Notes under the pieces: model-generated
What the model was told of the DNA's origin: nothing
The model's input: only the letters and a program-made list of their open reading frames with translations
Databases searched by the model: none
Made by a program: the position numbers and the translations under genes
Virus record (IMG/VR): IMGVR_UViG_3300031707_000239
Location: 1 to 20,205 of that record
DNA: 20,205 nucleotides
Source of the DNA: a virus
Strand: one strand, 5' to 3'
Shown: positions 3,919 through 19,968 of the stretch, piece after piece
Numbering within the stretch: position 1 is the first letter of the stretch
Layout: every line of letters begins with the position of its first letter

Positions 3919-4157
3919 TGCCGCCATTGCACATGACAGACTACTGGGGGCGGCTCACGGGCCGAGAGGAGCAGGTCTTACGGCTACGGCTCGCACTGTT
4001 CAACAATCATGAGATCGCACGGATGCTGAGGATCTCCCCTGTGACAGTGAGGGGGTACCTCAAAGACGGCAAAGCGCGCATCCCCACGGCACGGACGGTG
4101 GATGACTACCTGATCTTGGCGGAGCGATGTGGTGTGCCACCGATGAGGACGATCTGA
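3918..4157 (+). CDS. Small LuxR/sigma-region-4-like HTH protein
   Basis: This 79-residue protein is dominated by a helix-turn-helix: LTGREEQVLRLRLALFNNHE (13-32), then IARMLRISPVTVRGYL (33-48), the pattern of GerE/LuxR-type DNA-binding domains (a TxREEQVL helix and a recognition helix PVTVRGYL). There is no receiver or ligand domain, so it is a bare DNA-binding module. ATG 3918 overlaps the csf2 stop as TGATG; ATG 3933 is an alternative that removes five residues. Its stop overlaps the cysH-like start in the same way, so it is made as part of the type IV operon. It could autoregulate the operon or act in phage transcription; neither is shown. Confidence 0.75.
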   Translation: MPPLHMTDYWGRLTGREEQVLRLRLALFNNHEIARMLRISPVTVRGYLKDGKARIPTARTVDDYLILAERCGVPPMRTI

Positions 4158-6003: not shown

Positions 6004-6004
6004 C

Positions 6005-6772
6005 GTGCAATGCGAACGGCTGACAGACGAGCAGGTGGTCGAGCGGGCGCAGGCCGGCGACGGCGACGCGGCGGAGTGGCTGCTGCGGAAGTACCGGGGC
6101 ATCGTGGTCTACAAGTCGCAGTCGATCTTCATGCGCGGTACGGAGCGGGATGACATGATCCAAGAAGGCATGATCGGGCTGTTCAAGGGCATCCGGGACT
6201 TCCGTCCCGACCGTGACTGCTCGTTCCGAATGTTCGCCGACCTCTGCATCACGCGGCAGATGATCACGGCGGTGAAAGGAATCGGGCCGGACCAGCTCCT
6301 GCTGGTGTTCGCGAAGCCGCTGATGATGCGGGACCCGGAAAACGCAGGGCGGTCGGGGCGGCGCCATCGGACGGGTGGAGGGGGCCTGGGGCGAGAGATT
6401 GACCCGCCGGGGGAACGGACGACGGAGGAGATCGCCGTCGGGCGGATGGAGGCGCGGGAGAAGCTCCGGCTGCTCCAGGAGGTCTGCACCCCCTATGAGT
6501 GGCAGGTGGCGAAGCTGTTCGGTGAGGGGAAGAGCTACCAGGAGATCGACGCGACGATCGGGAGTGTTGGGCCTCATGGGCGGGACGGGGTGAAGGGGAC
6601 GGACAATGCGCTGGTGCGGGTGAGGCGGAAGATTGCGAAAATGGGGGAGGAGGTGATGGTCGGTGAAGTGGATGCGGGACATAGTCGAGATCCGGGAATG
6701 GGTCACCGTTTGGGTGGTCCGCAAGCCACGGAAGAAGAGAGGCAAGAAGCGCAAGTGAACGCCGACGCCTGA
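6005..6772 (+). CDS. Sigma-H-like RNA polymerase sigma factor
   Basis: This 255-residue sigma-70 family protein is closest in pattern to Bacillus-type sigma-H. Region 1.2/2 runs LTDEQVVERAQAGDGDAAEW (6-25), RDDMIQEGMIGLFKGIRDF (48-66) and SFRMFADLCITRQMITAVKG (73-92). Region 4 is TPYEWQVAKLFGEGKSYQEI (162-181), then GTDNALVRVRRKIAK (198-212). A glycine/arginine-rich linker (residues 115-140) replaces the usual inter-region segment. The C-terminal 40 residues after region 4 look non-conserved and overlap another small frame. GTG 6005 is the only reasonable start, 1 nt after the csf3 stop. Its position just before the terminase genes suggests it directs host polymerase to late phage promoters; that is inference. 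Confidence 0.87.
   Translation: MQCERLTDEQVVERAQAGDGDAAEWLLRKYRGIVVYKSQSIFMRGTERDDMIQEGMIGLFKGIRDFRPDRDCSFRMFADLCITRQMITAVKGIGPDQLLLVFAKPLMMRDPENAGRSGRRHRTGGGGLGREIDPPGERTTEEIAVGRMEAREKLRLLQEVCTPYEWQVAKLFGEGKSYQEIDATIGSVGPHGRDGVKGTDNALVRVRRKIAKMGEEVMVGEVDAGHSRDPGMGHRLGGPQATEEERQEAQVNADA
6648..6657 (+). promoter_or_regulatory. Near-perfect Shine-Dalgarno AGGAGGTGAT
   Basis: AGGAGGTGAT is complementary to the 3' end of 16S rRNA over 10 nt. It lies inside the sigma gene, 5 nt before GTG 6663 and 14 nt before ATG 6672 of a different frame, and so marks a real internal initiation site. Confidence 0.6.
6663..6758 (+). CDS. 31-residue basic small protein overlapping the sigma gene
   Basis: GTG 6663 opens a 31-codon frame, different from that of the sigma gene. 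It begins MKWMRDIVEIREW, continues with a hydrophobic VTVWVVR stretch and ends in a lysine/arginine tail (KPRKKRGKKRK). ATG 6672 is an alternative start (28 residues). The near-perfect Shine-Dalgarno at 6648-6657 is placed correctly for either start, and the sigma frame here no longer encodes recognisable sigma sequence. The short amphipathic or membrane-proximal segment with a cationic tail could bind nucleic acid, membrane or polymerase. No homologue is recognised and the function is unknown. Confidence 0.5.
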   Translation: MKWMRDIVEIREWVTVWVVRKPRKKRGKKRK

Positions 6773-6782
6773 CAGGAATGCC

Positions 6783-7304
6783 ATGGAAACGGCAATGGAG
6801 CGGAAATCCGATGGATGGAAGCCCTGCAACGCGCGGACCCGGTCGGGCGGGCGATGTAAGCTCGCCCCGACACCGGGGAATGCGCGTTGCCGCTTCCATG
6901 GCGGCCGAGCGGGCCGCCCGATCGTGCATGGGGCGTACTCGAAGCTGCTGCGGAAGCGGCCGGGGTTCGGGGAGTACCTCGACGCGGTGGCCGGCCTGCA
7001 GGCGGAGCATGGGTTGTCGATGGGGCCCGAGATCGAGACGCTACGGGCGCGGTTGCTTGAGGTGCAGGCGTCGGGCAACGACCCGCAGGCGGAGGCGACG
7101 CTCGCAGGAGTGATCGATAAGCTCAGGCGGAGTGAACAGGTGCTGGCGGGGCTCGTATCGCGAGAGGACGCGCTGGAGGCGATGCGAGCGGTGATGGGGT
7201 GCATACATGGTCACGTGGATGGCGCCACTTGGGACGCGATCTGCATCGATCTCGCTCGAAGAGGTCTTGGGCGAGTGCGTGCCATTGGAGCCGCCGACGA
7301 CTGA
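6783..7304 (+). CDS. Terminase small subunit-like protein with zinc knuckle
   Basis: The N-terminal motif CNARTRSGGRCK (15-26), then C36 and HGG (39-41), followed by GRPIVHGAYS (44-53), is typical of phage proteins annotated as small terminase-like or HGG-motif proteins encoded next to the large terminase. The rest is helical (LQAEHGLSMGPEIETLRARL) and could oligomerise. The length of 173 residues fits a small terminase. ATG 6783 has AGGA 6 nt upstream. The 3' end overlaps the large terminase start by 98 nt, unusually long for this genome, so either this protein or the downstream gene may in reality be shorter. Recognition of packaging-site DNA is inferred from position. Confidence 0.7.
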   Translation: METAMERKSDGWKPCNARTRSGGRCKLAPTPGNARCRFHGGRAGRPIVHGAYSKLLRKRPGFGEYLDAVAGLQAEHGLSMGPEIETLRARLLEVQASGNDPQAEATLAGVIDKLRRSEQVLAGLVSREDALEAMRAVMGCIHGHVDGATWDAICIDLARRGLGRVRAIGAADD

Positions 7305-8883
7305 GCGGCTCGGGCTCGCCGAGTGGGCTGAGGCGCACCGGGTGCTCGATGGACGGGTGTTCTCGTTCCGCGGGCATGAGTACCTGCGCGAGCTGTATGA
7401 CGATGCCCAGGACGCGCGGCATGTCGTGCTGATGAAGGGCAGTCAGATGGGGGGCACGGAGTACGCCCTCTCGCGGGTGCTCTGGATGCTCGACACCGAG
7501 GCGCAGGCCGGCCGGCGCCGGCGGGCGATCTACTACTTCCCGTATAGCTCGGACGTGATGGACTTCAGCCGCGACCGGTTCACGGCGGCGGTGAACGATT
7601 CGCCATACCTGGGCAGCATCGTGGGGCCGGAGCTGGGCGCGATAAATCGCGCCCCTACGGGGGATAGGCCAGGGGCGATCCGGGAGAGCTCGGTGCAGGC
7701 GTTGAGGAGTGTGAGGGGATCCCGGCTGTACTTCCGGGGGATGCTCTCGAGGGGCTCGCGGATCGGCGAGACGGGGGCGATGAAGGTCAAGAGCATCCCG
7801 GGCGATATGCTGGTGTTCGACGAACTGGACGAGGCGCCGCAGGCAGCGCGCGAGCAGGCGATCGAGCGGGTCGGGCACTCGGACCTGCGATGGGTGATCG
7901 AGCTGTCGACGCCGACGTACCCGGGTAGCGGTATCGACATCCCATGGCAACAGTCGGACCAGCGGCACTGGCACCTCGACTGCCTATGTTCGGACGGATG
8001 CTGCGTCGATGACGCGTTCCCGGCGTGTGTGGACGATACCGGGGAGCTTCGTTGCCCTGCGTGCAGTGAGGTGCTGGATCGCGCCGAGGGACATTGGGTC
8101 GCACACGCGGAGAGCGAGATCCGAGGGTATCGGATCAGCCAGCTCTACAGCTCGACCCATGGGCTGCGCGGGATCGTGGAACGGTACCAGGCGCCCGGCG
8201 ATCATCAACAGGTGATGAACCATGCGCTCGCACGGCCGCATCGGGATGGGACGCGGACGCCGTTCCCGCGGGAGTTGGTCGAGGGATGCTGCCGACCGCG
8301 GGAGATGGAGACCTCGGGGACGCGGACCTACTGTGGGATCGACGTGGGGAGCGATCTGTTCTACGTGGTGATCGCGAGCCGCGGGGCGGACGGCTCGATG
8401 CAGGTGATCTGGGTCGGCGAAGTGAGCACGGCGACGGACGAGCATGGGGCGCCGGCCGAGCTGTATGAGGTGCTGAGCCGTTACGATGTGGCTGTCGGAG
8501 TCGTTGACGCGCAACCGGAGACCCATACGGTGCAGCGGATCATCCGGGACCATCCGAGCCGGATGGTGCGGTGCCGGTATGAACAGCAGCATGTCCGATC
8601 GGAGTGGCAGCACTCCAAGCGGACGGTGTGCACCGACCGGACGACCTCGCTCGATGACCTGCGGACGCGGTATGTGGCCGGCGGGATCGAACTGCCATCG
8701 CCGCAGATCCCGGCGATGCAGACGCTCATCGCGCACCATGCGGCGTTCGCGATCGAGTACGTCGAGAGCGGGCAGACACGGGTGCAGCGGAAGGTGTACC
8801 GAGACACAGGGGCGGATCACTTCGCCCATGCGGTCAACTACTGCCACATCGCGTTTCAGCGGCCGACGCCGGGGGTGGCGTGA
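7207..8883 (+). CDS. terL: Terminase large subunit (packaging ATPase-nuclease)
   Basis: This 558-residue motor cuts and pumps DNA into proheads. The GpA/TerL-type N-terminus AEWAEAHRVLDGR (38-50) is followed by a variant Walker A, KGSQMGGTE (77-85), and Walker B MLVFDELDE (201-209) with catalytic E. A CxxC pair (C283, C286, with further cysteines at 261-266) may bind zinc. The RNase H-like nuclease has D379 (CGIDVGSD), D434 (VVDAQ) and D537 (GADHFAHAVNY). The start is uncertain: ATG 7207 gives the longest form, while GTG 7279 gives one 24 residues shorter. Residues about 144-152 (AINRAPTGD) come from an in-frame stem-loop repeat inserted in the ATPase domain. The stop overlaps the next gene as TGATG. 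Confidence 0.9.
   Translation: MVTWMAPLGTRSASISLEEVLGECVPLEPPTTERLGLAEWAEAHRVLDGRVFSFRGHEYLRELYDDAQDARHVVLMKGSQMGGTEYALSRVLWMLDTEAQAGRRRRAIYYFPYSSDVMDFSRDRFTAAVNDSPYLGSIVGPELGAINRAPTGDRPGAIRESSVQALRSVRGSRLYFRGMLSRGSRIGETGAMKVKSIPGDMLVFDELDEAPQAAREQAIERVGHSDLRWVIELSTPTYPGSGIDIPWQQSDQRHWHLDCLCSDGCCVDDAFPACVDDTGELRCPACSEVLDRAEGHWVAHAESEIRGYRISQLYSSTHGLRGIVERYQAPGDHQQVMNHALARPHRDGTRTPFPRELVEGCCRPREMETSGTRTYCGIDVGSDLFYVVIASRGADGSMQVIWVGEVSTATDEHGAPAELYEVLSRYDVAVGVVDAQPETHTVQRIIRDHPSRMVRCRYEQQHVRSEWQHSKRTVCTDRTTSLDDLRTRYVAGGIELPSPQIPAMQTLIAHHAAFAIEYVESGQTRVQRKVYRDTGADHFAHAVNYCHIAFQRPTPGVA
7635..7660. repeat. Stem-loop repeat, GGGCGC...GCGCCCCTACG family
   Basis: Perfect 9-bp arms GGGCGCGAT and ATCGCGCCC surround a 2-nt loop (7635-7654), followed by the conserved tail CTACGG. 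It is in frame inside the terminase ATPase domain. Relatives: 15249, 18086, 18340. Confidence 0.85.
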
Positions 8884-9137
8884 TGGTGCGACGAACGAGA
8901 CTGATGGTCCCGTCCCCCCCCCCCTCGGTCCCCCCCGCGAACGGGGGGGAGGGCGGATTGCATCGGACGTACTGCCCGGCGTGTGGGCGGCGGGGATGCG
9001 ATGTCGCGGGCGATGTGGCACGAGTCGTGGAGCCATGCCGGAGATGTGGGAAACTGGTCGAGGTGGTTGTACGCGGTGAGCGGCTAGAGGTAAACTTGAC
9101 CTGTCAGACGAATACCTCTGGCGACGAACACAACTAG
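8883..9137 (+). CDS. Com-like small zinc-ribbon protein
   Basis: This 84-residue protein has CPACGRRGC (31-39) and CRRCGKLVEV (52-61), two CxxC knuckles spaced as in Com-type phage zinc ribbons. In Mu-like phages Com activates translation of mom, but no mom-like gene is in this window, so that role should not be assumed. ATG 8883 overlaps the terminase stop (TGATG); GTG 8880 is an alternative. Residues 11-25 (proline- and glycine-rich) are encoded by an inserted stem-loop repeat, so about a sixth of the protein is repeat-derived. The C-terminus (TCQTNTSGDEHN) lies in a locally less GC-rich stretch holding an inverted repeat. Confidence 0.7.
   Translation: MVRRTRLMVPSPPPSVPPANGGEGGLHRTYCPACGRRGCDVAGDVARVVEPCRRCGKLVEVVVRGERLEVNLTCQTNTSGDEHN
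8911..8955. repeat. Stem-loop repeat, poly-C/GCGAAC/poly-G family
   Basis: Arms CCCCCCC (8930-8936) and GGGGGGG (8943-8949) flank the loop GCGAAC, preceded by a second C run and CTCGGT. It lies in frame in the Com-like gene. The same family occurs at 11819 and 15875. Confidence 0.85.
9086..9119. promoter_or_regulatory. 7-bp inverted repeat, possible operator
   Basis: AGAGGTA (9086-9092) and TACCTCT (9113-9119) are perfect inverted arms 20 nt apart, in the least GC-rich spot of the late region, at the 3' end of the Com-like gene. They might form a protein site or a weak RNA stem. Function unknown. Confidence 0.3.
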
Positions 9138-9174
9138 GACCCAGCGCCCCATTCGGACCTATGCGTCCACCAGC

Positions 9175-9210
9175 GGGCCTGACCTCCGGTGACGGAGGCG
9201 GGTCCGTTTT
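9175..9210 (+). terminator. Hairpin with GTGA tetraloop and T tract ahead of portal
   Basis: CCTCCG (9183-9188) and CGGAGG (9193-9198) pair around GTGA, a GNRA-type loop. The stem continues outward with one bulged A through 9175-9181 pairing with 9199-9205, including two G-T wobbles, then G and TTTT (9207-9210). This is the form of an intrinsic terminator, although the U tract is short. It separates the packaging genes from the portal gene, so it may attenuate rather than stop late transcription. The hairpin also excludes GTG 9189, which lies in its loop, as a likely portal start. Confidence 0.6.
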
Positions 9211-9227
9211 CGCTGTGTGGGGTTGGC

Positions 9228-11453
9228 ATGGGCCTGCTGGGTCGGACAGCCTACGCGCTCTTTCCCAACGTGACGGAGCGTTTCCGCAGCGGTAGCGCGG
9301 CACGAGTCCGCGCCCTACAAGCGGGCGGGGTGCCCGGCATGACCAGCAGGCCCGGCACTCCATCGATGCCGCAGAGTGCGAAGTACAACGACTTCGCCCG
9401 GGCGATGGAGCAGGCGATCTGGCTCTCGATGTCGGTATCGGTGCTCGCGCAAAAGGCGGCGGACCTGCCACTGAAGGTCTACCGCCCCGGGCGCGGGGGC
9501 GAGCGGGAGGACCTCGGACCTGACCATCCGCTGCTCCAGCTCCTCTGCACACCGAACCCCGTTCATCCCGGCATGCTGTTCGACGAGATGATCTACAGCT
9601 ACATCCTGCTGGGCGGGGCGGCCCCGATCTACGTCGCGGCGTCGCGCGGGGGTGGCCCTGGGGAGCTGTGGCCATTGCGGCCCGACCAGGTGTGGGTCTA
9701 CCCGAGCGCGACCCAGTGGATCGACCACTACGAGCATCGGGTGGGGACGACGATCACGCGGTATGCGCCCGAGGAGATCATCCTCCTGCGGACCGCGCAT
9801 CCGCAGCAGGAGTACTTCGGGCTGGCGCCGGTGCAGCCGCTGGAGGGCGTCGTCGCGCTCGACCTCATGGCGCGGACATGGAACATGGCCACCTTCCAGA
9901 ACCACGCCGGCTCCGCAGGGGTGTGGAGCACCGACGACCCGATGATGACTGCCGATCAGGCGCGGGAGATCGAGGCGCACATCGACGAGAAGTTCAAAGG
10001 GCCGGCCAACGCAGGGCGGTCCCTCGTGGCGTGGGGTGGGATGCGGTTCACGCAGGCCGGGACGACCGCGCGGGACATGGAGTACTCGGCGCTGCTCGAC
10101 CGGGTGCGGGATACCCAGACCAGCGGCTTGCATGTGCCGCCGATCATGGCCGGGCGCACCGAGAACGCCAGCTATGACAACGCGACGACGCAGATCAAGC
10201 TCTTCTATGCGAACGGCGTGAAGCGGCTCACCAACACCAGCGACGCCGGGTACAACCACGCGCTGGCACCGAAGCCTCTGGGTTGGCCGCGATCCATTCT
10301 GAGCAAGCCATACCAGGGGCTGATCGTGGAGACCGACTTCAGCGGCGTGCCCGAGCTGCAGGAGGACCAGGAGAAGTTGGAGCGGATCCGCGACCTGAAG
10401 CTACGGAACTGGACGAGCACGATCAACGAGATCCGGGCGGAGCGTGGCGAGGGTCCTGTTTCGTGGGGCGACGAGGCATGGGGCTCGATGTCGAATGTGC
10501 CGCTGGGGACGAGTTGGTCGCTGGGGGGCGGTGGAGGCGCGGCATTGGCTGCGAGGAGCAGGGGCGGGCCGGACATCGCCCGCTTCGCGGGCTCGTGCGG
10601 CCCCTCCGGTTGCCACCGCAAGGTGAGGTTGCGGTTCCTGCCGGAGCGGCGGATCGAGCTGTGGTTCAAATTCGCCGGGGGGCTGGAGCGGCAGCAGCGG
10701 CTGATCGGCGGGGTGTTCGCGCGGCTGTATGCGAAGCTCGCGGCGGACGTCGACGTCGAGGGGGACGTGCCGTTCGCGCTCGACGCGTGGCGGAAGCGGT
10801 TCGCCGCCGACGGACTGCCGGTGATCCGGGATGTGCTGCAGGCGGGTGCGCAGGAGGGGCTCAATCAGGCGAACGAGCTGACGGGGCAAGAGGCGGCGGC
10901 CTCGGTAGGTGGGCCGGGTGGGACCCCTACCCCACGCGGCCCCTCCAGGGGGATCGCGAAGGCGTTCGACATCGCGCCGACGATGATGGTCGAATTCCTG
11001 CGGCAGCGGGAGAACAAGCTGCGCGGGTTGGCGGACACATCGTATGACGACCTGAAGGCGTCACTGGTGCAGGGGCGCGAGGCGGGCGAGAGTGTCGAGT
11101 CGCTCCGCGGGCGAGTGGAGAAGGTGCTCGGGCAGAGCGTGGTCGATCAGGACCTGGATGCGCTCGTGGGGTGGCGTGCGGAACGGGTCGCGCGGACGGA
11201 GACAATCGGGGCCAACAACCAGGGCGCGCTGTTCGGATACGAGATGAGCGGCGCGGTGGATGGTAAGGAGTGGCTCGCGACACAGGACCCGCCCAGATCG
11301 CGCGAGGAGCATGATGCGATCGATGGCATGGTAGTCGGGCTGGACGAGGCGTTCGATGTGGGGGGCGAGTCGCTCGAGTTCCCGGGCGACCCGAATGGCA
11401 GCCCGGAGAACATCATCAACTGCCGGTGCTCAATCGCGCCGGTCGTGATGTGA
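9228..11453 (+). CDS. Portal protein fused to Mu-F/SPP1 gp7-like head protein
   Basis: This 741-residue protein joins two virion functions. Residues about 50-430 are an HK97-type portal (FARAMEQAIWLSMSVSVLAQ, YSYILLGGAAPIYV, PPIMAGRTENASYDNATTQ at 304-322, FSGVPELQEDQEKLERI). Residues about 465-741 are a Mu gpF-like minor head domain, with RAERVARTET (650-659), then SREEHDAIDG (691-700), FDVGGESLEFPGDP (709-722) and the terminal NCRC (731-734). The junction (430-465) and a second linker (560-575) are glycine/proline-rich and include stem-loop-repeat sequence. ATG 9228 is preferred over GTG 9189, which lies in a hairpin loop. Portal forms the dodecameric DNA channel; the F-like domain usually assists head assembly. 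Such fusions exist in other phages. Confidence 0.88.
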   Translation: MGLLGRTAYALFPNVTERFRSGSAARVRALQAGGVPGMTSRPGTPSMPQSAKYNDFARAMEQAIWLSMSVSVLAQKAADLPLKVYRPGRGGEREDLGPDHPLLQLLCTPNPVHPGMLFDEMIYSYILLGGAAPIYVAASRGGGPGELWPLRPDQVWVYPSATQWIDHYEHRVGTTITRYAPEEIILLRTAHPQQEYFGLAPVQPLEGVVALDLMARTWNMATFQNHAGSAGVWSTDDPMMTADQAREIEAHIDEKFKGPANAGRSLVAWGGMRFTQAGTTARDMEYSALLDRVRDTQTSGLHVPPIMAGRTENASYDNATTQIKLFYANGVKRLTNTSDAGYNHALAPKPLGWPRSILSKPYQGLIVETDFSGVPELQEDQEKLERIRDLKLRNWTSTINEIRAERGEGPVSWGDEAWGSMSNVPLGTSWSLGGGGGAALAARSRGGPDIARFAGSCGPSGCHRKVRLRFLPERRIELWFKFAGGLERQQRLIGGVFARLYAKLAADVDVEGDVPFALDAWRKRFAADGLPVIRDVLQAGAQEGLNQANELTGQEAAASVGGPGGTPTPRGPSRGIAKAFDIAPTMMVEFLRQRENKLRGLADTSYDDLKASLVQGREAGESVESLRGRVEKVLGQSVVDQDLDALVGWRAERVARTETIGANNQGALFGYEMSGAVDGKEWLATQDPPRSREEHDAIDGMVVGLDEAFDVGGESLEFPGDPNGSPENIINCRCSIAPVVM
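9295..9318. repeat. Stem-loop repeat, CACRAGT-loop family
   Basis: Arms GCGCGG (9295-9300) and CCGCGC (9308-9313) surround CACGAGT and are followed by CCTACA. It is in frame near the portal N-terminus (AARVRALQ). Relatives: 14714 and 19943. Confidence 0.8.
10578..10607. repeat. Stem-loop repeat with GCGGCCCCTCC tail
   Basis: GCCCGC-TTC-GCGGGC hairpin (10578-10592), then the tail GCGGCCCCTCC (10597-10607). It lies in frame at the junction of the portal and Mu-F-like domains. Confidence 0.65.
10918..10946. repeat. Stem-loop repeat with GCGGCCCCTCC tail
   Basis: GTGGG (10918-10922) and CCCAC (10931-10935) form a short stem followed by the same GCGGCCCCTCC tail as at 10597 and 19298. It encodes a proline/glycine linker inside the Mu-F-like part. 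Confidence 0.55.
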
Positions 11454-11462
11454 GGTGCTGAG

Positions 11463-11813
11463 ATGGCGACGCTCGGGGTACAGGATCAGGTCTATCTGCA
11501 GGATGCCACGACGCGGGAGAAGGTGGTCTCGCAGACCTACAACACCTCGTGGACGGTGACGGGGTGGCACTATGCCACGTTCACGATCGCCGCGAACCAG
11601 ACCGATTCCCAGGTCAACTTCGGGAACCTGGCGGCGGCGCGGCATGTGTGGATCCAGACCGACCAAGACTGCACGGTGAACATCGGGGGGACTGGTGGGA
11701 CGGACATCCCATGCGCGAAGAAGCTCGAGCTGCATAGCGCGGCGGACATCACGCTGATCTATATCACGACGGGCGCGAGCATCACCACGGTGACGGTGGT
11801 GCTGGCGAAGTAG
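11463..11813 (+). CDS. Small beta-rich virion protein (hypothetical)
   Basis: This 116-residue protein is rich in threonine, valine and aromatic residues, with alternating beta pattern (WTVTGWHYATFTIAANQTD, VWIQTDQDCTVNIGG, DITLIYITTGASITTVTVVL). It has no signal peptide or membrane segment. It resembles small jelly-roll or Ig-like head decoration or fibre subunits in composition, but no family is recognised. ATG 11463 follows GAGGTG and begins 9 nt after the portal-F stop. Its placement between head genes supports a virion role; that is inference. Confidence 0.75.
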   Translation: MATLGVQDQVYLQDATTREKVVSQTYNTSWTVTGWHYATFTIAANQTDSQVNFGNLAAARHVWIQTDQDCTVNIGGTGGTDIPCAKKLELHSAADITLIYITTGASITTVTVVLAK

Positions 11814-11818
11814 GGGAT

Positions 11819-11858
11819 GCCCCCTCCCCGGCCCTCCCCGCGAACGGGGAGGGGGAAA
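11819..11858. repeat. Stem-loop repeat, C-run/GCGAAC/G-run family
   Basis: Perfect arms CCCTCCCC (11832-11839) and GGGGAGGG (11846-11853) flank GCGAAC. The T and A within the arms are a compensatory pair relative to the copies at 8911 and 15875. It is intergenic, 5' of the zinc-ribbon gene. Confidence 0.85.
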
Positions 11859-11868
11859 GGCGAGGACG

Positions 11869-12045
11869 ATGCGGACGAACAGGATCGCGTGGAGGCCGGT
11901 GGCGGCGGCGACGCCAAGCCGGTGTCCGCATTGCGGGGGGCAGAGGATCGAGAGGGTCAACGACATGCAGGCGCGCTGCGTGGAGTGTGGGCGCTCGATA
12001 CCGATCGCGGCGAAGAGCGCGCTTCACCCGAAAGGGGTGGGCTAG
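11869..12045 (+). CDS. 58-residue zinc-ribbon protein
   Basis: ATG 11869, with GAGGA 3 nt upstream, opens a 58-codon frame ending TAG 12045, immediately before the protease start. It contains CPHCGGQRI (C19, C22) and CVECGRSIPI (C37, C40), two CxxC knuckles 14 residues apart. This is a compact zinc ribbon with basic flanks, likely nucleic-acid- or protein-binding. It is the third small zinc protein in the window. The gene is short but has good codon use and fills an otherwise empty gap between two head genes. Function unknown. Confidence 0.72.
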   Translation: MRTNRIAWRPVAAATPSRCPHCGGQRIERVNDMQARCVECGRSIPIAAKSALHPKGVG

Positions 12046-13263
12046 ATGGCGAGTCCGATGGCTGTGCAGGACGTTCGGAGAGCAGGTCCCAATGCCGGCA
12101 GGATGCCGGCGCTCCCAGGGGGAGAGCGGATCGCGCAGAAGCAGGTGCTGCTCTCGGGGGGCACCGAGCGGGTTGTGAGCGAGGAGGAGTTGGCGCTCAT
12201 CAACCGGTTCGCGCTCGACCCGCTCACTGCGGATGAGGTGTTCGTGCAGGAGATGGATCTGGCGACGAGCTGGTATGACATCGACTACCAGCGGTTCTCG
12301 CCGTCCGTGCTGGGGGACTTCCAGCGGACGCTGCCCGGAAAGAGCTTGCTGCTCGGGCATCAGTACGACTCGGTCGCGGAGGGGCTCTGGTACACGGCGA
12401 ACATCGTCGAGGTGCCCCAGCCGCCACGGCAGTCGGCACCCTCCCCTGCCCCGCACCAGATGCTGCGCGCGTCGTGGTACACGGTGAAGACCTCCGAGAA
12501 CGAGCACCTGCGGCAGTTGCTGCGGGCGGGCGTCATCCGCTACTGCAGCATCACGGTCGCGGCGCGTGATGGGGGCGACTTGACGTGCGACATCTGCGGA
12601 AAGTCGCTGTTCGGTTGGGACTGCCCGCACATCCTCGGGACCGACTACGAGGGACGGATCGCGACCGCGACCTGGCAGAGCCCGTGCGAGGCGTGGGAGG
12701 GATCGCTCGTCTACCTCGGGGCGCAGTTCGGCTCGGAGTCACGGAAGGTCGCGGCGCGCCAGGCGGCGGTAGCGGCGGCGATGCTGGGCGGCGCGAAGGG
12801 CGGGATCGAGTGCTCGCCCGAGGAGCGGGCCCGGTTCATCCAGGCGGTCGAACGGCTATATGAGTTGGTCGATCAGAAGCTCCCCGATGGACTCCGCGAG
12901 GGCCAGGCGTTTCACGAGATCGCCTGGGAGAATGGGGAGCCGGACGTTCTGCAGGAGATGATCTGGGAGCGCGTACTCGCGCGCTATCCCCAGCAGCTCA
13001 GCAAAGAGGCATTTACCGCGCAGAGGTGGTTCACGCGGGAGGGGCGAGTTCTGTCGCCCGCCAACCGCGCGCTCATCTCTTCGGCAGTCTCGACGATGTC
13101 TGAGGGGCAGGCGACGCTCCAGGATCTGCTGGACGCGACTGACCCGGACCGCGAGGCGGTCATCGCCATGGAGGACCAGCTCCGGGCGGCGCTTGGGTTG
13201 CCAGCGGACAGGGATCCGCTGGAGGCGCTGCGCTTAGCCGCAGCCATGACTACGGCGGCATAG
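12046..13263 (+). CDS. Prohead maturation protease, probably with scaffold tail
   Basis: In this 405-residue protein, residues 50-120 (DLATSWYDIDYQRFSPSVLG, then LPGKSLLLGHQYDSVAEGLW) match phage prohead proteases, with H105 the likely catalytic histidine and IRYCSITVAARD (164-175) around the likely serine S168. A zinc-like insert CDIC (181-184)...CPH (193-195) is seen in some protease homologues. The C-terminal half (about 230-405) is helical and may act as a scaffold that is digested during maturation. ATG 12046 abuts the previous stop; residues 17-26 come from an inserted repeat, so the real conserved protein may begin near residue 28. Its place just before the capsid gene is the standard one. 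Confidence 0.72.
   Translation: MASPMAVQDVRRAGPNAGRMPALPGGERIAQKQVLLSGGTERVVSEEELALINRFALDPLTADEVFVQEMDLATSWYDIDYQRFSPSVLGDFQRTLPGKSLLLGHQYDSVAEGLWYTANIVEVPQPPRQSAPSPAPHQMLRASWYTVKTSENEHLRQLLRAGVIRYCSITVAARDGGDLTCDICGKSLFGWDCPHILGTDYEGRIATATWQSPCEAWEGSLVYLGAQFGSESRKVAARQAAVAAAMLGGAKGGIECSPEERARFIQAVERLYELVDQKLPDGLREGQAFHEIAWENGEPDVLQEMIWERVLARYPQQLSKEAFTAQRWFTREGRVLSPANRALISSAVSTMSEGQATLQDLLDATDPDREAVIAMEDQLRAALGLPADRDPLEALRLAAAMTTAA
12094..12120. repeat. Stem-loop repeat with GCTCCCAGGG tail
   Basis: GCCGGC (12094-12099), AGGAT, GCCGGC (12105-12110), then GCTCCCAGGG. It is in frame in the N-terminus of the protease. The copy at 18311 is nearly identical; the one at 15969 shares the tail with different arms. 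Confidence 0.85.
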
Positions 13264-13274
13264 GGAGAACGACG

Positions 13275-14708
13275 ATGCTCACGGAGCTGGAGAAGGAACT
13301 CCAGAAGATCCTGGGCTGCGACCTGACGGGCGATGATCTGTTGGGCGCGGCCAAGGCGTTCTACGCGAACGCCAACGAGGCGGCGAAGGCGGCATCGGAC
13401 GAGAAGCGCGATGCTGACCTGGCCGCGATCCGGGCGATGGGCGAGAAGCTCGACAAGCACGTCAACGAGGTGCCGCCCGAGGGGCGGAAGCTGCCGCCGA
13501 GCGATGGGCAGCCGAAGAGCATGGGCGACGTGGCGGGGGCGGTAGCTGACCCTCTGCGCCACATGAGCGGTTCGAGCGTGGCCCGAGTCGTGCGGACGAT
13601 CATGGAGAACCGCACCGACGAGATGAAAGCGTTGGAGAAGGGCGCGATCGCCTCGATGATGGAGGCGGCCTGGAAGGGGATTCCGGTCCAGGCCACCCAC
13701 GCGTTCGAGGATCAGTTCGCGAAGTACGCCCCGACCAGCGTGCTCGCGAAGGTGCTCAGCCAGGTCGGCACGGCGGCCGGCGCCGAGTGGCTGCCGACGC
13801 TGATGATGAGCCGGGTGATCGACCTCTACCGGATCAGCGAGTCGATCCTGTCGGAGCACGAGATCATCCCCGGGCTCGGCTACACGAACGAGATCCCGAT
13901 GTGGCTGTCGGGCATCACGCTGTACTACAACCCGCCGTCCTCGGACGATGCGAAGACGACCGGGCGGAAGAGCACGCCAGGCACCGGGAAGCTCTCCTAC
14001 ACGCCCAAAGAGTTTTTCGTTTTGGTGGCGATCGAGGAGCACTTCGAGGAAGATGCCCTGGCGGCGGCACTCACGTTCTTCGACCAGCAGCTCATTCGGG
14101 ACGCGGTGGACAACCTCGACAACTTCATCGTGAACGGGTCGTCCGCGGCAACGCACCTCGACTCCGACATCACGGACCCGAACGATGGGCGCAAGGCGTG
14201 GGACGGGTATCGGAAGTTCGCCTCCGATGCCAGCACGACGCTCGACCTGAGCACGTTCAGCGACGCGAACTTCGAGGCGCTGCTCGTGAAGCTCGGGCGG
14301 TACGGCATCCGGACCAGCCAGTTGCGGGCGATCATCGAGCCGACGGTGGTCTACCCGAAGATCCGGGCGCTGTGCATGACGAGCGCGATCACGAACCAGC
14401 TTGCCGGGTTCCAGAACGGCGAGATCACCTCGTGGCACAACGTGAAGCTCATCAAGAGCGACCACGTCCGCACGGGGCTGAACGCGAGCGGCGTCGTGGA
14501 TGGGATCACGCCGACCTACACCTGTCTGCCGGTGGTCAATGTGACACAGGCGGTCTACGTCCAGAAGAACGACTTCGAAATCAAGCGGGTCGAGGAGTTC
14601 GAGACGGGCCGGCCGTTCGTGCGCATCCGGGTTCGCGGCGCGTTCGTGCCGATCGACCACCCGACCACGCGGAAGACCATCGCGGCGAACGGGATCAAGA
14701 TCAGCTAA
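13275..14708 (+). CDS. Major capsid protein, HK97 fold
   Basis: This 477-residue protein has an N-terminal coiled, charged delta-type region (ELEKELQKILG through about residue 110) that would be removed by the upstream protease. Beyond it is a typical HK97-fold body: APTSVLAKVLSQVGTAAGAE, EEHFEEDALAAALTFFDQQL (the spine helix area), DAVDNLDNFIVNGSSA, then RAIIEPTVVYPKIRAL, and a C-terminal beta stretch RVRGAFVPIDHPTTRKT. ATG 13275 has GGAG 8 nt upstream. Position after a prohead protease and before decoration-like and connector genes supports the call. Subtle alternatives, such as a capsid-like encapsulin, are unlikely in this context. Confidence 0.88.
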   Translation: MLTELEKELQKILGCDLTGDDLLGAAKAFYANANEAAKAASDEKRDADLAAIRAMGEKLDKHVNEVPPEGRKLPPSDGQPKSMGDVAGAVADPLRHMSGSSVARVVRTIMENRTDEMKALEKGAIASMMEAAWKGIPVQATHAFEDQFAKYAPTSVLAKVLSQVGTAAGAEWLPTLMMSRVIDLYRISESILSEHEIIPGLGYTNEIPMWLSGITLYYNPPSSDDAKTTGRKSTPGTGKLSYTPKEFFVLVAIEEHFEEDALAAALTFFDQQLIRDAVDNLDNFIVNGSSAATHLDSDITDPNDGRKAWDGYRKFASDASTTLDLSTFSDANFEALLVKLGRYGIRTSQLRAIIEPTVVYPKIRALCMTSAITNQLAGFQNGEITSWHNVKLIKSDHVRTGLNASGVVDGITPTYTCLPVVNVTQAVYVQKNDFEIKRVEEFETGRPFVRIRVRGAFVPIDHPTTRKTIAANGIKIS

Positions 14709-14713
14709 GCCGA

Positions 14714-14737
14714 GGCGGGGCACAAGTCCCCGCCCTA
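14714..14737. repeat. Stem-loop repeat, CACRAGT-loop family
   Basis: Perfect arms GGCGGGG (14714-14720) and CCCCGCC (14728-14734) surround CACAAGT, then CTA. Compared with 19943 (GGCGCGG/CCGCGCC) the arms differ by a compensatory base pair. It lies just after the capsid stop. Confidence 0.88.
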
Positions 14738-14741
14738 GAGA

Positions 14742-14806
14742 GGGTGAGGGGCCCGCGCGTGGGGACCCTCACCCCGGCCCTCTCCCCGGGGGGAGAGGGG
14801 GAGGAG
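14742..14806. repeat. Double stem-loop, CCCTCACCCC/CCCTCTCCCC family
   Basis: Arms GGGTGAGGG (14742-14750) and CCCTCACCC (14766-14774) are followed by CCCTCTCCCC (14778-14787) and GGGGAGAGGG (14790-14799) with a 2-nt loop. The second hairpin matches the copy at 54-74. It lies between the capsid gene and the decoration-like gene and ends just before the Shine-Dalgarno AGGAGG (14808-14813). Confidence 0.88.
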
Positions 14807-14819
14807 CAGGAGGCACACG

Positions 14820-15242
14820 ATGCTCGACACATACGATGAGCTGGTGCGGACGATCCCGCTGGGCGACTGGGCGGCCGACGAGGACGCCAAACCGCGGGCA
14901 CTGTTGTTCGTGCCGGCGGGGCGGGTGTTCACGGTCGAGTCGGTGCTGATGTCCACCGAGGCGGCGGTCGTGGACCAGGACACCGACTACAACACGTTCT
15001 ACGTTCAGAACAACGTCGCGACCTACTTGGCTGCGGCGGTGATCTGTTCGTTGGCGAACGGGCCGGCTGCCGGCGGTGTGACGATCGCCATTGCGCCGAC
15101 CGCGATGAGCACGCCGGCTGCGACAAAGAAGGTCGTCAACGGCGGAGCGGCTGGAGCGACGATCTACTTCGTCAGCGTGCTGACCGGGGCGGGATTGGCG
15201 GTGCCGTCGCTGGTCGTGCACCTGGTGGGCCAGTGGGCGTAG
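14820..15242 (+). CDS. Probable capsid decoration/virion surface protein, copy 1
   Basis: This 140-residue beta-rich protein starts MLDTYDELVRT and contains LFVPAGRVFTVESV, DYNTFYVQNN, CSLANGPAAG and VVNGGAAGATIYFVSVLTG. It is a clear paralogue of the following gene at 15292, with equal length and the same motif order. AGGAGG lies 6 nt before ATG 14820. Small beta proteins right after the capsid gene are often decoration or fibre-like head proteins; that is inference, as no named family is recognised. There is no signal peptide or membrane segment. Confidence 0.78.
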   Translation: MLDTYDELVRTIPLGDWAADEDAKPRALLFVPAGRVFTVESVLMSTEAAVVDQDTDYNTFYVQNNVATYLAAAVICSLANGPAAGGVTIAIAPTAMSTPAATKKVVNGGAAGATIYFVSVLTGAGLAVPSLVVHLVGQWA

Positions 15243-15248
15243 GTCCGA

Positions 15249-15273
15249 GGGCGCAGCAAGCAGCGCCCCTACG
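15249..15273. repeat. Stem-loop repeat, GGGCGC...GCGCCCCTACG family
   Basis: GGGCGC (15249-15254), AGCAAGCA loop, GCGCCC (15263-15268), CTACG. It lies between the two duplicated decoration-like genes. The copy at 18086 is identical except for one loop base. Confidence 0.88.
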
Positions 15274-15291
15274 ATGAAGGGACAGTGGATC

Positions 15292-15714
15292 ATGCTCGAT
15301 ACCTACGATGGGCTACAGCGGACGATCAACGTCGGGGACTATGGCGCGGATGAGAACAGCAAGCCGCGGTGCATCCTGTTCGTCCCCGCGGGGCGCGTGT
15401 TCACGGTGGAGGCGGTGCACCTGTCGGCTGATGCCGCTGCCGCCGCCGTCGACACCAACTACAACACGTTCTACATCCTGAACAACAGTGCGACCTATGC
15501 GGCCGCCGCGGTGATCAGTTCGCTGGCGAACGGCCCGGCTGCGACGGGGACGGCGATCGCGACGGCGCCGACTGCGATGAGCACACCGGGTGCCACGACG
15601 AAAATCGTGAACGGCGGGGCGGCCGGTGCCGCGATCTACCTCCTGAGCGTCAAGACGGGGAACGGCGCGGCCGTGGCCTCACTGACCGTGCACCTGCGCG
15701 GGAAGTGGAGCTAG
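15292..15714 (+). CDS. Probable capsid decoration/virion surface protein, copy 2
   Basis: This 140-residue paralogue of the preceding gene starts MLDTYDGLQRTINVGDYGAD and shares LFVPAGRVFTVE, NTFYI/V, SLANGPAA, APTAMSTP and VNGGAAGA with copy 1. ATG 15292 is preferred over ATG 15274 because AAGGGA (15277-15282) lies 9 nt upstream and the alignment with copy 1 begins there. Two diverged tandem copies suggest heteromeric or alternative decoration. A virion role is inferred from position. Confidence 0.78.
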   Translation: MLDTYDGLQRTINVGDYGADENSKPRCILFVPAGRVFTVEAVHLSADAAAAAVDTNYNTFYILNNSATYAAAAVISSLANGPAATGTAIATAPTAMSTPGATTKIVNGGAAGAAIYLLSVKTGNGAAVASLTVHLRGKWS

Positions 15715-15719
15715 GTCCG

Positions 15720-15977
15720 ATGGCCGAGTCGATCCGAGTCAGGTTCACGCAGCGGACGCCGTTCAGCGCGGGGCGGGTGTTCGAGGGGGGCGCGGAGGCT
15801 GTGCTGACGGTTGGGGAGATCGCGACGCTGCGGATGGCGTACGGCGATGAGGTGGTGGCGGAGATCCAGGAGGCCCCCCCCTTGGTCCCCCCCGTGAACG
15901 GGGGGGATGACGGGGCGGCCGGCATCCCGGAGCCGCCGGATCGGGGTCGAGGGCGGAAGACGAAAGCTGCAGACTGA
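15720..15977 (+). CDS. Small head-region hypothetical protein
   Basis: In this 85-residue protein, residues 1-50 (IRVRFTQRTPFSAGRVFEGG, LTVGEIATLRMAYGDEVVAE) resemble short phage proteins found between capsid and connector genes. The rest is disordered: residues 53-65 are an in-frame stem-loop repeat (PLVPPVNGGDDG) and the C-terminal RGRGRKTKAAD is basic. The stop TGA is the loop of another inserted palindrome (15969-15984), so the original C-terminus may have been altered. ATG 15720 is 5 nt after the previous stop; a start at 15705 would overlap it. Confidence 0.68.
   Translation: MAESIRVRFTQRTPFSAGRVFEGGAEAVLTVGEIATLRMAYGDEVVAEIQEAPPLVPPVNGGDDGAAGIPEPPDRGRGRKTKAAD
15875..15910. repeat. Stem-loop repeat, poly-C/GTGAAC/poly-G family
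   Basis: CCCCCCC (15887-15893), GTGAAC, GGGGGGG (15900-15906), preceded by a second C run and TTGGT. It is in frame in the small head-region gene and closely similar to 8911-8955. Confidence 0.85.
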
Positions 15978-15993
15978 AGTCTGCGCTCCCAGT
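15969..15993. repeat. Stem-loop repeat with GCTCCCAG tail
   Basis: GCAGACT (15969-15975), GA, AGTCTGC (15978-15984), then GCTCCCAG. The tail is shared with 12094 and 18311 although the arms differ. The TGA at 15975-15977 terminates the upstream gene. Confidence 0.82.
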
Positions 15994-16003
15994 GGAGAGG
16001 ATC

Positions 16004-16591
16004 ATGGCCAGGCTGTACACGACAGAGCCGATTGTGTCGGTCGCGCTGGGTGAGCTGAGCGAGGCGGAGCGCGCCGGGGTGAACGGGATCATCGAGAGCT
16101 GCTCCGAGGCGATCGAGAAGCACTGCGGCCGGTGGTTCATCGCGGAGGCCGGGGTGCGGGTGTTCGATGGCTCGGGGACGCAGAACCTGTGGATCGATGA
16201 CCTGCTCGAGCTGGGCGGCGTGACGATCGACGGGCTGGCGGAGTCGACCATCCTCCGATACCCGCTGAACGAGCTACCTACGACTCGACTGCTGCGGCAG
16301 TATGGCGAGCGGTGGCCAACGGGCTTCCGGATGATTGAGGTCACAGGGCGCTGGGGCTACAGCGAGACGGCGCCGGCGCGGGTCCGCGAGGCGTGCACGA
16401 TGCTGGTGTGCGCTTCGCTGCGGCCGGGCGGGCGGAAGCCCGCCGAGGAGACGCTCGGAGTGAAGTCGATCTCAGTCGATGGGTTCTCGGCGACGTTCGA
16501 GACGGTGACACTCTCGGACGTCAACACGTGGCCACCCGATGTGACGCGGCAGCTCGCGGCCTATCGGCGAATGGCGGTGCACGCGATATGA
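16004..16591 (+). CDS. Head-tail connector (gp6-like adaptor)
   Basis: This 195-residue protein is of the phage head-tail connector/adaptor type that docks on the portal ring. The N-terminal helices LSEAERAGVNGIIESCSEAI and EKHCGRWFIAEAGVRVFDGSG are typical of this family, followed by a beta segment LWIDDLLELGGVTIDG and, later, VTGRWGYSE with C-terminal helices. ATG 16004 has GGAGAGG close upstream. The stop is in an ATGA overlap with the next gene. Its order after the capsid and before head-closure and gp10-like genes fits. Confidence 0.75.
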   Translation: MARLYTTEPIVSVALGELSEAERAGVNGIIESCSEAIEKHCGRWFIAEAGVRVFDGSGTQNLWIDDLLELGGVTIDGLAESTILRYPLNELPTTRLLRQYGERWPTGFRMIEVTGRWGYSETAPARVREACTMLVCASLRPGGRKPAEETLGVKSISVDGFSATFETVTLSDVNTWPPDVTRQLAAYRRMAVHAI

Positions 16592-16971
16592 GGCTGCTGA
16601 GTGGGATCCTCTCGACGATGGTTACGCATGAGGTGACGGTGAAGCGGCCGGCCGGGGCGGATGCCGATGGCCGGCCGGCGTTCACGAGCATCGCGACCGA
16701 GGTGCAGGTGCGGCTGTCGTCGGCGACGGCCCATCAGATCCAGGAGCCGACGCCGCGGTTCGAGTATCCGGTGACGCACTCATTCCGGTGCGCGCTCGAG
16801 TTGGGGATTGCGGCGGGCGATCTGCTGGTGATCACCCGGTCGCGCGCAGGGAACGAGTGGACCGCGGTCACGGGGGGCGCGGAGTACCGGGTGCTCTCCG
16901 CCGAGGAGCCGGCGGGGCTCGATGGGCCGGACCATGTGCACGGGCTGCTGAGCACGCTGGGACTGGGGTGA
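16588..16971 (+). CDS. Head closure / head-tail adaptor protein
   Basis: This 127-residue beta-rich protein contains VTHEVTVKRPAGADADGRPA, EVQVRLSSATAHQI, HSFRCALELGIAAGDLLV and YRVLSAEEPAG, the pattern of small stopper/head-closure proteins (SPP1 gp16 or HK97 gp9-like) that seal the portal after packaging. ATG 16588 is in ATGA overlap with the connector; the stop is in GTGA overlap with the gp10-like gene. Family recognition is mostly by size, beta pattern and gene order. Confidence 0.65.
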   Translation: MRLLSGILSTMVTHEVTVKRPAGADADGRPAFTSIATEVQVRLSSATAHQIQEPTPRFEYPVTHSFRCALELGIAAGDLLVITRSRAGNEWTAVTGGAEYRVLSAEEPAGLDGPDHVHGLLSTLGLG

Positions 16972-17390
16972 GCGGGATGATCACCGCACGGATCCAGGGA
17001 GCGAGCGCGGTCGTGAGTAGGTTACGCGCCATGGGGGCCCATGTGCCGGAGGCGCGGGACAAGGGGCTGGCGCGGGCGGGCTACATTCTGGAGGCCGCAG
17101 CGAAGCGGCAGGTCTCAGGCAGGGCGCTGAACGTCGATCGCGGTGGGTTCCGCAGCTCGATCTACACCGAGTTGAACCCGGGCGTGGTGCGTGTTGGGCC
17201 GACGGTGGTGTATGCGCAGATCCATGAGTTCGGCGGCACATACACGCATCCCAACCTGTTCGGAAAGGGCATCGTCGCACAGATCACGATGCCGGCTAGA
17301 GCGCCGATGGGGAAGGCGCTCGATGAGTGCCGTGACAAGATCCGGGGAGCCATGAGCAGCGCGATCATGGACATCAGGGGCGTGGGCTGA
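16968..17390 (+). CDS. HK97 gp10-like tail/neck protein
   Basis: This 140-residue protein begins MITARIQGASAVVSRLRAMG, then KGLARAGYILEAAAKRQV and VGPTVVYAQIHEFGGTY, with the YAxIHEFGG motif typical of the HK97 gp10 family (tail completion/neck assembly). The C-terminal ARAPMGKALDECRDKI is the usual family ending. GTG 16968 (GTGA overlap) is taken as start; ATG 16977, three codons in, is equally possible. The stop overlaps the next ATG as TGATG. Confidence 0.83.
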   Translation: MSGMITARIQGASAVVSRLRAMGAHVPEARDKGLARAGYILEAAAKRQVSGRALNVDRGGFRSSIYTELNPGVVRVGPTVVYAQIHEFGGTYTHPNLFGKGIVAQITMPARAPMGKALDECRDKIRGAMSSAIMDIRGVG

Positions 17391-18061
17391 TGAGCCTGGA
17401 GTTCGAGCTATTCGAGGGGCTATATGACCTGTTCGTCCCGGTGGTGGCGAAGACCGGGAGCGCGACAGGCACGGCCGACTCGGGCTCAACCCTGACGATG
17501 GTGGACTCCGACCTGACGGGCGCCGATGACGCGTGGCAGTTCGCGGTGCTGCTGTTCACGAGCGGGGACAATGCCGGGAAGAGCCGGGTGATCTCGAACT
17601 CAGTGGCGAGCACCGATCTGCTGAAGTGGCGGCGCGAGCTGCCGCACGCAGTGGAGGCCGCGGACGGGTACACGCTGTCGTTCGGGCGGATGTCCGGAGC
17701 GGTGCTCTATCTCGGGGCGCCGGAGGCATATGGGAACGACGACTTCCTGGCGGTCGGGACGACGCTGGAGGGCAGCGCGGTACACGGGGCATCGGGCTCG
17801 ACCCATCCCCGGTTCCGGGACGAGCCCACGGTGGGGATGCTCTGCGGGATCCCGCTCGAGCATGGGATCGCGAACCTCCGGGATGCGGCGGACTTCCTGT
17901 CGCAGATCAAGACGGTGCTGCAGGTGAACCAGATGGTGTCGCCGGGCGCGGTGCTGGGCGCGATGAAGCGGTACACGATGGACCTCGCGAGCCTGCGCGG
18001 GCAGGGGACGGCGCTCTGGCGAGTGTCGGAGATCGAGGTCGCGGTGGGAGCGTGGACGTAG
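17390..18061 (+). CDS. Tail completion-position protein with inserted beta domain
   Basis: This 223-residue protein lies in the tail-completion position. Residues about 19-100 look like a separate beta domain that I recognise from diverse phage virion proteins: GSTLTMVDSDLTGADDAW, LLFTSGDNAGKSRVISN, ELPHAVEAADGYTLSF. The remaining part (AYGNDDFLAVGTTLEG, GMLCGIPLEHGIANLRDA, VLQVNQMVSPGAVLGAMKRY) would be the core tail terminator-like fold, so the core is split or N-terminally extended. No confident family for the core. A role at the tail terminus is inferred from gene order only. Confidence 0.65.
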   Translation: MSLEFELFEGLYDLFVPVVAKTGSATGTADSGSTLTMVDSDLTGADDAWQFAVLLFTSGDNAGKSRVISNSVASTDLLKWRRELPHAVEAADGYTLSFGRMSGAVLYLGAPEAYGNDDFLAVGTTLEGSAVHGASGSTHPRFRDEPTVGMLCGIPLEHGIANLRDAADFLSQIKTVLQVNQMVSPGAVLGAMKRYTMDLASLRGQGTALWRVSEIEVAVGAWT

Positions 18062-18085
18062 GGCCACCGTGGGGCGCAGGGCAAT

Positions 18086-18110
18086 GGGCGCAGCAAGCGG
18101 CGCCCCTACG
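18086..18110. repeat. Stem-loop repeat, GGGCGC...GCGCCCCTACG family
   Basis: GGGCGC (18086-18091), AGCAAGCG, GCGCCC (18100-18105), CTACG. It is intergenic, upstream of the small gene at 18137. Confidence 0.88.
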
Positions 18111-18136
18111 GGGGCGGCGAGAGAGAGGCGGGCGAG

Positions 18137-18394
18137 ATGCCTGAGTCGATGATGCTGAAGCGAGAGAGGGAGCTGCGGGAGCAGGCTGCCGCGGCGGTGG
18201 CGCCGGACCCGACGAAGCCGATGCGAGGTGGGGCGCGGGACGGGCGAGCGGATGCGATGCTGGCCACGGTGAAGGGGCAGTTCGCGGCGGCGCGTGGGAT
18301 GGCCACAGCAGCCGGCAGGGATGCCGGCGCTCCCAGGGAGGGCGCCATGAATGTCGCCCCTACGGAGATCGACGACGGGGGAGGTGAGGTCTGA
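18137..18394 (+). CDS. Small hypothetical protein between tail genes
   Basis: The 85-residue protein has a charged helical N-terminus (MLKRERELREQAAAAVAPD) and a disordered C-terminus. The last 25 residues are largely two back-to-back stem-loop repeats read in frame. It has a plausible start (AGAGAGAGG upstream, ATG 18137) and its stop is in TGATG overlap with the tail tube gene, which argues that it is translated. No family recognised; it could be a small tail assembly factor or a remnant extended by repeats. Confidence 0.55.
   Translation: MPESMMLKRERELREQAAAAVAPDPTKPMRGGARDGRADAMLATVKGQFAAARGMATAAGRDAGAPREGAMNVAPTEIDDGGGEV
18311..18338. repeat. Stem-loop repeat with GCTCCCAGGG tail
   Basis: GCCGGC (18311-18316), AGGGAT, GCCGGC (18323-18328), GCTCCCAGGG. 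It is nearly identical to 12094-12120 and in frame in the small gene. Confidence 0.85.
18340..18364. repeat. Stem-loop repeat, imperfect GGGCGC...CGCCCCTACG copy
   Basis: GGGCGCCAT and ATGTCGCCC pair with one mismatch around GA, then CTACG. It directly follows the preceding repeat, making a two-family composite. Confidence 0.7.
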
Positions 18395-19257: not shown

Positions 19258-19277
19258 GTGGGGAGAGGTGAGGCCGG

Positions 19278-19308
19278 GTCGTCTGAGGAGCGACGACGCG
19301 GCCCCTCC
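19278..19308. repeat. Stem-loop repeat with GCGGCCCCTCC tail
   Basis: GTCGTC (19278-19283), TGAGGAGC, GACGAC (19292-19297), then GCGGCCCCTCC. It is intergenic between the tail tube and chaperone genes. Confidence 0.72.
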
Positions 19309-19340
19309 ATGGGTTCGGGGGAGAGGGAGAAAGGCACGAG

Positions 19341-19942: not shown

Positions 19943-19968
19943 GGCGCGGCACAAGTCCGCGCCCTACA
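19943..19968. repeat. Stem-loop repeat, CACRAGT-loop family
   Basis: GGCGCGG (19943-19949), CACAAGT, CCGCGCC (19957-19963), CTACA. It lies between the chaperone and tape measure genes. Confidence 0.88.

Follow-up and report, generated by a model that had tools for sequence, protein, structure and literature searches.

The window and its palindromic repeats

The viral DNA of IMG/VR record IMGVR_UViG_3300031707_000239, which in its entirety is the 20,205-base window analysed here, carries in its right part a head/packaging/tail module, several genes of which contain short palindromic repeats translated in frame with the protein. The genes concerned, all on the + strand, are those of the terminase large subunit (TerL; 7207-8883), a gpA-type ATPase/nuclease (PF05876, phrog_675, with an AlphaFold model compared with solved TerLs); a Com-like zinc-ribbon open reading frame (ORF; 8883-9137), recognized from its sequence, a family search giving no match; a portal protein fused to a Mu-F-like head morphogenesis domain (9228-11453; PF04860 at residues 69-406 and PF04233 at residues 609-736), a full-length homologue of which is L175; a candidate capsid maturation protease, a probable assignment by position only (12046-13263); and two small genes defined by gene calls (15720-15977 and 18137-18394). 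At the left end, a replication-initiator-like ORF that is truncated by the contig end, so that its C-terminal part remains (2-313, + strand), also contains a repeat; this part is homologous to the C-terminus of gene 4054-5385 of the related viral contig L269.

The repeats were detected by scanning for GTAG or GGAG and then for a hairpin, followed by a strict pattern for each family, with 300 dinucleotide shuffles as the control. Five tagged families (A, D, E, F and G), which are repetitive extragenic palindromic elements (REPs), and two untagged palindromic families (B and C) were distinguished. The tag is GTAG in A and E and GGAG in D, F and G, and it lies on the - strand, the + strand reading as a stem-loop and then CTAC or CTCC. 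The tagged families have stems of 7-12 bp and form short stem-loops within the 20-40 bp of the GTAG REP superfamily. The patterns are GGGCGC-loop-GCGCCCCTACG for A, GCCGGCA..TGCCGGCGCTCCC for D, GGCACAAGTCCGCGCCCTA for E, GCAGACTGAAGTCTGCGCTCCC for F, GGCCGG...CGGCCCCTCC for G, CCCTCACCCC..CCCTCTCCC..GGGAGAGGG for B and GGTCCCCCCCGYGAACGGGGGGG for C. With these strict patterns, the + strand of the window contains four copies of A, two of D, three of E, one each of F and G, and two each of B and C, and the - strand contains no copy of any family; the shuffles gave 0.007 A copies per shuffle and 0 for every other family. A wider list comprises approximately 18 copies, about half of them intragenic. 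From 314 to approximately 7620 the window is free of repeats of any family. That the left genes might be immune to repeats was considered and rejected, L269 having F copies in or beside homologues of these genes. A search of Rfam gave no match on the window.

A repeat-containing insertion in the terminase

In TerL, residues 139-157 are an insertion (7621-7677, + strand) that encloses the A REP GGGCGCGATAAATCGCGCCCCTACG (7635-7659, + strand); the repeat-encoded peptide is predicted to be GAINRAPTGDRPGAIR, and the peptide NRAPTGD, reported in the preliminary description of this DNA, is present at nt 7635-7660. Between R124 and L174 the window TerL has 51 residues versus 31-40, mostly 32 or 33, in 56 homologues, and at columns 139-157 a gap is present in 95-100% of these homologues, so that the insertion amounts to 19 amino acids or 57 nt. 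Three comparisons, namely 83 homologues aligned by our own script, a five-sequence alignment and a 57-sequence alignment, all agree; a nine-sequence alignment was set aside as too divergent as a query. The comparison with repeat-free homologues that had been suggested at the outset thus gives an insertion absent in 56/56 and of a length divisible by three.

The AlphaFold model of TerL (pLDDT 86.7, pTM 0.82) resembles solved terminases. Its pLDDT falls below 50 only in the first 28 residues and, internally, at 144-148 and 150-161, and the loop is placed between helix 133-138 and strand 166-169 of the ATPase domain. As modelled, the TerL copy is a disordered internal loop of the ATPase domain, neither a terminus nor a domain junction; the earlier statement that the copies lie mostly near termini or domain junctions fits the linkers and tails described below, but not this copy.

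Copies in other genes and between genes

All further copies are on the + strand. In the Com-like ORF, a C palindrome (8917-8956) encodes SVPPANGGEGG, and a TTG codon downstream of it at 8958, preceded by the repeat-derived GGGGGAGGG, is a possible alternative start. The portal gene has an E REP near its N-terminus (9297-9323; AARVRALQAGG), where the start codon is uncertain, and two G-type GGAG-tagged palindromes (10562-10608, RGGPDIARFAGSCGPSG, and 10905-10946, VGGPGGTPTPRGPS) between the end of the portal domain (approx. residue 406) and the start of the Mu-F domain (approx. residue 609), a stretch that is variable across homologues. Gene 12046 contains a D REP (12093-12119) read as AGRMPALPGG, preceded by N. 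Its homologues in viral contig L104 and in L092 (37 and 34% identical overall) start 26 amino acids later, and the extra stretch contains the D repeat, which would therefore form part of a 26-residue N-terminal extension, provided that the annotated start codon is correct. Near the C-terminus of gene 15720, a C palindrome (15874-15913) encodes LVPPVNGGDDG, and the F REP GCAGACTGAAGTCTGCGCTCCC (15969-15992) provides the TGA stop of the same gene. In gene 18137, a D REP near the C-terminus (18311-18336; AAGRDAGAPR) stands beside an A REP (18340-18364; GAMNVAPTE), the two peptides together spanning 18311-18366. Finally, ORF 2-313 contains a B repeat (42-80) in frame as ASPLTPTLSRGERGKSG. A homologue search with the Com-like gene and genes 15720 and 18137 found none.

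The peptides listed in the preliminary description are all present, as are the two portal palindromes, and the copies do code for flexible, low-complexity peptides, as it had stated; the N-terminal portal copy and the copy in ORF 2-313 had been missed. Frame-preserving insertion of a measured length is demonstrated against homologues in TerL and, as an N-terminal extension, in gene 12046 only.

The intergenic copies are of C (11820-11859), E (14715-14741), B (14766-14803), A (15249-15273, with an AGCAAGC loop, and 18086-18110), G-type, GGAG-tagged (19272-19310), and E again (19943-19967). The A REP at 15249 lies between the two members of a tandem gene duplication (14820-15242 and 15292-15714; 74% nucleotide identity over 300 nt).

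Related viral contigs and the reading register

The AGCAAGC loop class of A is free of stop codons in 3/3 sense and 2/3 antisense registers. In viral contigs, 10/39 copies of this class are intragenic, versus 0/21 at host loci (Fisher p ~0.01), and all 10 are read in the sense direction, nine of them in the register GAAS(G/S)APT; the tenth (L269, position 854) is probably upstream of the true start codon. Seven of these nine lie in well-supported genes, and 7/7 in one of three sense registers corresponds to p ~0.001, a statistic computed post hoc, after the pattern had been seen, and for which an independent sample is needed. They include, in unrelated contigs, the tail of a P22-like portal (copy at residue 638, domain end at 622), an endolysin (copy at 273, end of the peptidoglycan-binding domain at 258) and a YqaJ/RecE-like, exonuclease-like protein (copy at 786, end of the YqaJ domain at 694), the remainder being homologous membrane-protein-like genes of L281 and L282 and two genes of L269. 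A broader second scan was less uniform: GATNAATC loops are read as GA(I/M)NRAPT (window, L275, L340 and L343), AGCATGCT loops as AQHAAP, and antisense copies as VGA...AP. A fixed frame of the element was accordingly rejected, the register depending on the loop class; the one used seems to be that which does no harm, Cys-Cys being avoided, for example, in loops of the AGCATGCT class.

The in-frame site shared by L281 and L282 is of equal length in both, with a palindrome that is perfect in L282 and approximately 70% matching in L281. This is consistent with decay of the palindrome while length and frame stayed, although the reverse direction is possible. In the same two contigs, an A REP (L282 5558-5581; L281 2121-2145) lies immediately before the next ATG, with its 3′ end making GGGAGG or AGGAGG; the L281 copy also encodes the C-terminus, while the L282 copy comes after a stop codon. 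Four to five A REPs in a single orientation occur within 1-3 kb in L262 (2593-5775) and L270 (6474-7374); L262 and L269 share a metagenome number.

The contig L269 (13.9 kb), retrieved by its A repeats in a scan at the DNA level, is a close relative: its nucleotide identity is approximately 80% to window 100-1760 and 72-81% to parts of 6006-6640. It too has many A, E and F copies, every one of them in sense orientation. In its gene 7108-7419, an F REP gives the tail PPLRTEVRAPSGDVG..., whereas the window homologue (1543-1779) stops at VVGNDSR and has no repeat. Gene 4054-5385 has a low-complexity stretch that contains both F and A REPs and, further on, a linker with an E REP (GHEFPPYKRGD), the very linker that in window ORF 2-313 holds the B repeat instead. 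In a DUF5131 gene of L269, GAASGAPTGD lies within the Pfam domain.

Occurrence of the same peptide in unrelated phages without the nucleotide repeat, which would speak against an origin from repeats, was not encountered: the unrelated phage proteins with the peptide carry the repeat, having been retrieved by exact DNA match, and the TerL homologues lack both. Among 50,697 isolate phage records, a 32-nt query containing the AGCAAGC-loop A REP had no match, and in plasmids weak partial matches only.

Occurrence in bacterial genomes

Whole-genome scans, limited to families A, D and E, revealed multi-copy dispersal of all three in bacteria. A is found in 58/291 Armatimonadota genomes and reaches 60 copies, D is found in seven (74 copies in one) and E in seven, the reversed-pattern controls being near 0; one genome (G261) has all three. 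Relatives of TerL include proteins of Armatimonadota prophages (36%) and of viral contig L104 (37%), and those of gene 12046 (approximately 45% over the best segment) come from a viral contig or from prophages of Armatimonadota. Judging from these similarities, the phage host is probably an Armatimonadota bacterium.

In 14 Armatimonadota genomes, 4/89 A, D and E copies lie inside called genes, versus 5/9 in the window, where all have one orientation (Fisher p ~0.0002, the ninth window copy coming from a slightly looser pattern); the samples being from different hosts, this contrast is suggestive. Between co-directional genes of the same 14 genomes, 20 copies have the same and 19 the opposite orientation, and a strand bias common to REPs in general was rejected on this count.

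Origin and retention of the repeats

For the host-type families, the TerL insertion with its predicted disorder, the in-frame copies elsewhere and the register preference, all of them observed, we consider it likely that REPs of host type inserted repeatedly into this phage lineage and were kept inside genes only in sense orientation, in frame and at harmless sites and registers. Non-autonomous short palindromic elements of the bacterial-chromosome type would have entered a lineage of tailed phages many times, presumably mobilized by Y1 transposases (TnpA_REP/RAYT-type) of the host. Inside genes, survival would have required a preserved frame, sense orientation and a position in a loop, linker or tail, together with a register whose translation is a flexible peptide made of small residues or rich in Pro, Gly and Ala. 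The filter would be purifying selection on random insertions, from which sense strand, harmless register and placement in loops and tails are the pattern to be expected.

Several points weigh against this account. B and C are untagged; the register varies with the loop class (AGCATGCT being read as AQHAAP), and some matches of the broad scan may be due to chance; the TerL insertion measures 57 nt and its palindrome 25 nt, so that the boundaries of the element are not exactly fixed; and the host is deduced rather than observed. As to the mobilizing enzyme, Y1_Tnp genes are present in 13/16 Armatimonadota genomes examined, but no transposase could be linked to A, D or E: the flanks of four Y1 loci were read and none has these families, the single Y1_Tnp gene that adjoins a GTAG REP does so with one of another family, and the best Y1 match is IS200/IS605-like, with, by reading, a TnpB-like gene adjacent to it.

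The idea from which the analysis started, that the repeats have been used to build linkers, is right as anatomy, the insertions forming loops, linkers and tails; adaptive use goes beyond the data. That the inserted peptides benefit the phage, with repeats as a reusable source of flexible linkers, appears unlikely to us. It would agree with the finding that two related phages have different repeats at one and the same linker of a protein, with the L281/L282 site, where length and frame were held with the palindrome intact in one contig and at approximately 70% in the other, and with the greater intragenic share in viral contigs (10/39) than at host loci (0/21), but half of the window copies are intergenic, the TerL loop sits in a conserved ATPase domain that 56 homologues build without it, and a selective filter on random insertions yields an identical picture. 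A narrower version, in which several phage lineages repeatedly used the REP in a specific register (GAAS(G/S)APTG) as a linker cassette and the linker outlasts the palindrome, we likewise hold to be improbable; if true, virion and lysis proteins would obtain modular linkers from a selfish DNA element. Neither do we favour a role at the RNA level, by which transcribed REP hairpins would act in phage mRNA (on stability, processing or coupling), as proposed for REPs in the literature (PMC3733652), coding being incidental. All 13 tagged window copies, intergenic ones included, share one orientation relative to transcription, as against 20:19 in host genomes, and the F copy gives the stop codon at 15975, while the C copy may give a ribosome-binding site near 8946. 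However, a palindrome forms a hairpin either way, so that orientation by itself is left unexplained, the intragenic register preference requires a cause at the peptide level, and 314-7620 has no REP.

Somewhat more plausible, though still doubtful, is an effect of annotation, whereby N-terminal copies would lie upstream of the true starts and would be untranslated. The stretch upstream of TTG 8958 in the Com-like ORF is purine-rich as well as repeat-derived, a codon-based caller puts the start of gene 12046 at 12103 and that of the portal at 9366, and PMC3733652 gives a like warning; the TerL, interdomain portal and C-terminal copies are, however, beyond the reach of this explanation.

In the phages considered here, in-frame REPs reach essential proteins, among them the packaging motor, the portal and an endolysin, and the sense-only, one-register pattern offers a signal of selection on the peptide that can be counted. 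Should the pattern hold in larger samples, phages would provide a test of the old problem of whether selfish palindromes inside genes are neutral or of use.

Relation to known palindromic elements

In bacteria, in-frame intragenic GTAG REPs are already known, and their placement in linkers, loops and termini has been suggested (Di Nocera et al. 2013, PMC3733652). The present repeats are similar in being short tagged palindromes with several families per genome and in-frame copies in loops, linkers and termini, but they differ in that copies of the window and other viral contigs lie in phage genes for the head, for packaging, for lysis and for replication, in their strict sense orientation with a single preferred register per loop class, and in that B and C are tagless and D, F and G have the tag GGAG, which is absent from the variants listed in that paper. 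Its main text contains no word beginning with ‘phage’, and a limited literature search, hence weak evidence, found no report of REPs in phage virion genes. Both the preference for one register and the presence of REPs in genes for virion proteins of phages look new.

The best-known in-frame palindromes are the Rickettsia palindromic elements (RPEs) of approximately 150 bp (PMC10969869). As with RPEs, in-frame palindromes are found in the genes of many unrelated proteins, where they encode a recurrent peptide; unlike RPEs, they are 25-57 nt long (TerL insertion 57 nt, repeated core 25 nt) and occur in phages, a distinction drawn from size and description, not from sequence comparison. With REPINs and their RAYT/TnpA_REP transposases (PMC3116915, PMC8266576) they share tagged hairpins in high copy number in probable hosts that encode Y1 transposases. 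Unlike REPINs, the window copies are singletons in one orientation, without inverted pairs, and no RAYT is tied to the families; inverted pairs do occur in viral contigs L261, L276 and L278.

Other features of the window

Also in the right module are small connector genes and, at 13275, what is probably the gene of the major capsid protein. Scans of viral sequences with TerL and the major capsid protein as single queries found no relatives, and with the portal only a 25% match. In the left part of the window, replication/recombination genes (IstB/DnaC-like, RusA and a sigma-like factor) surround a phage-borne CRISPR type IV-like effector cassette (1766-6003), with a Csf1-like gene (weak), a Cas11-Csf2/Cas7 fusion, a helix-turn-helix gene, a CysH-like PAPS reductase and Csf3/Cas5; the CysH gene presumably indicates subtype IV-B. 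In L269, the genes that flank the cassette site adjoin each other, which resembles an empty site for the cassette of approximately 4.2 kb. The left-hand genes of the window and L269 are related and the head modules (window 7207-14708, L269 8714-13762) differ, an HK97-type portal fusion in the window corresponding to an SPP1-type portal in L269, i.e. module exchange between close relatives.

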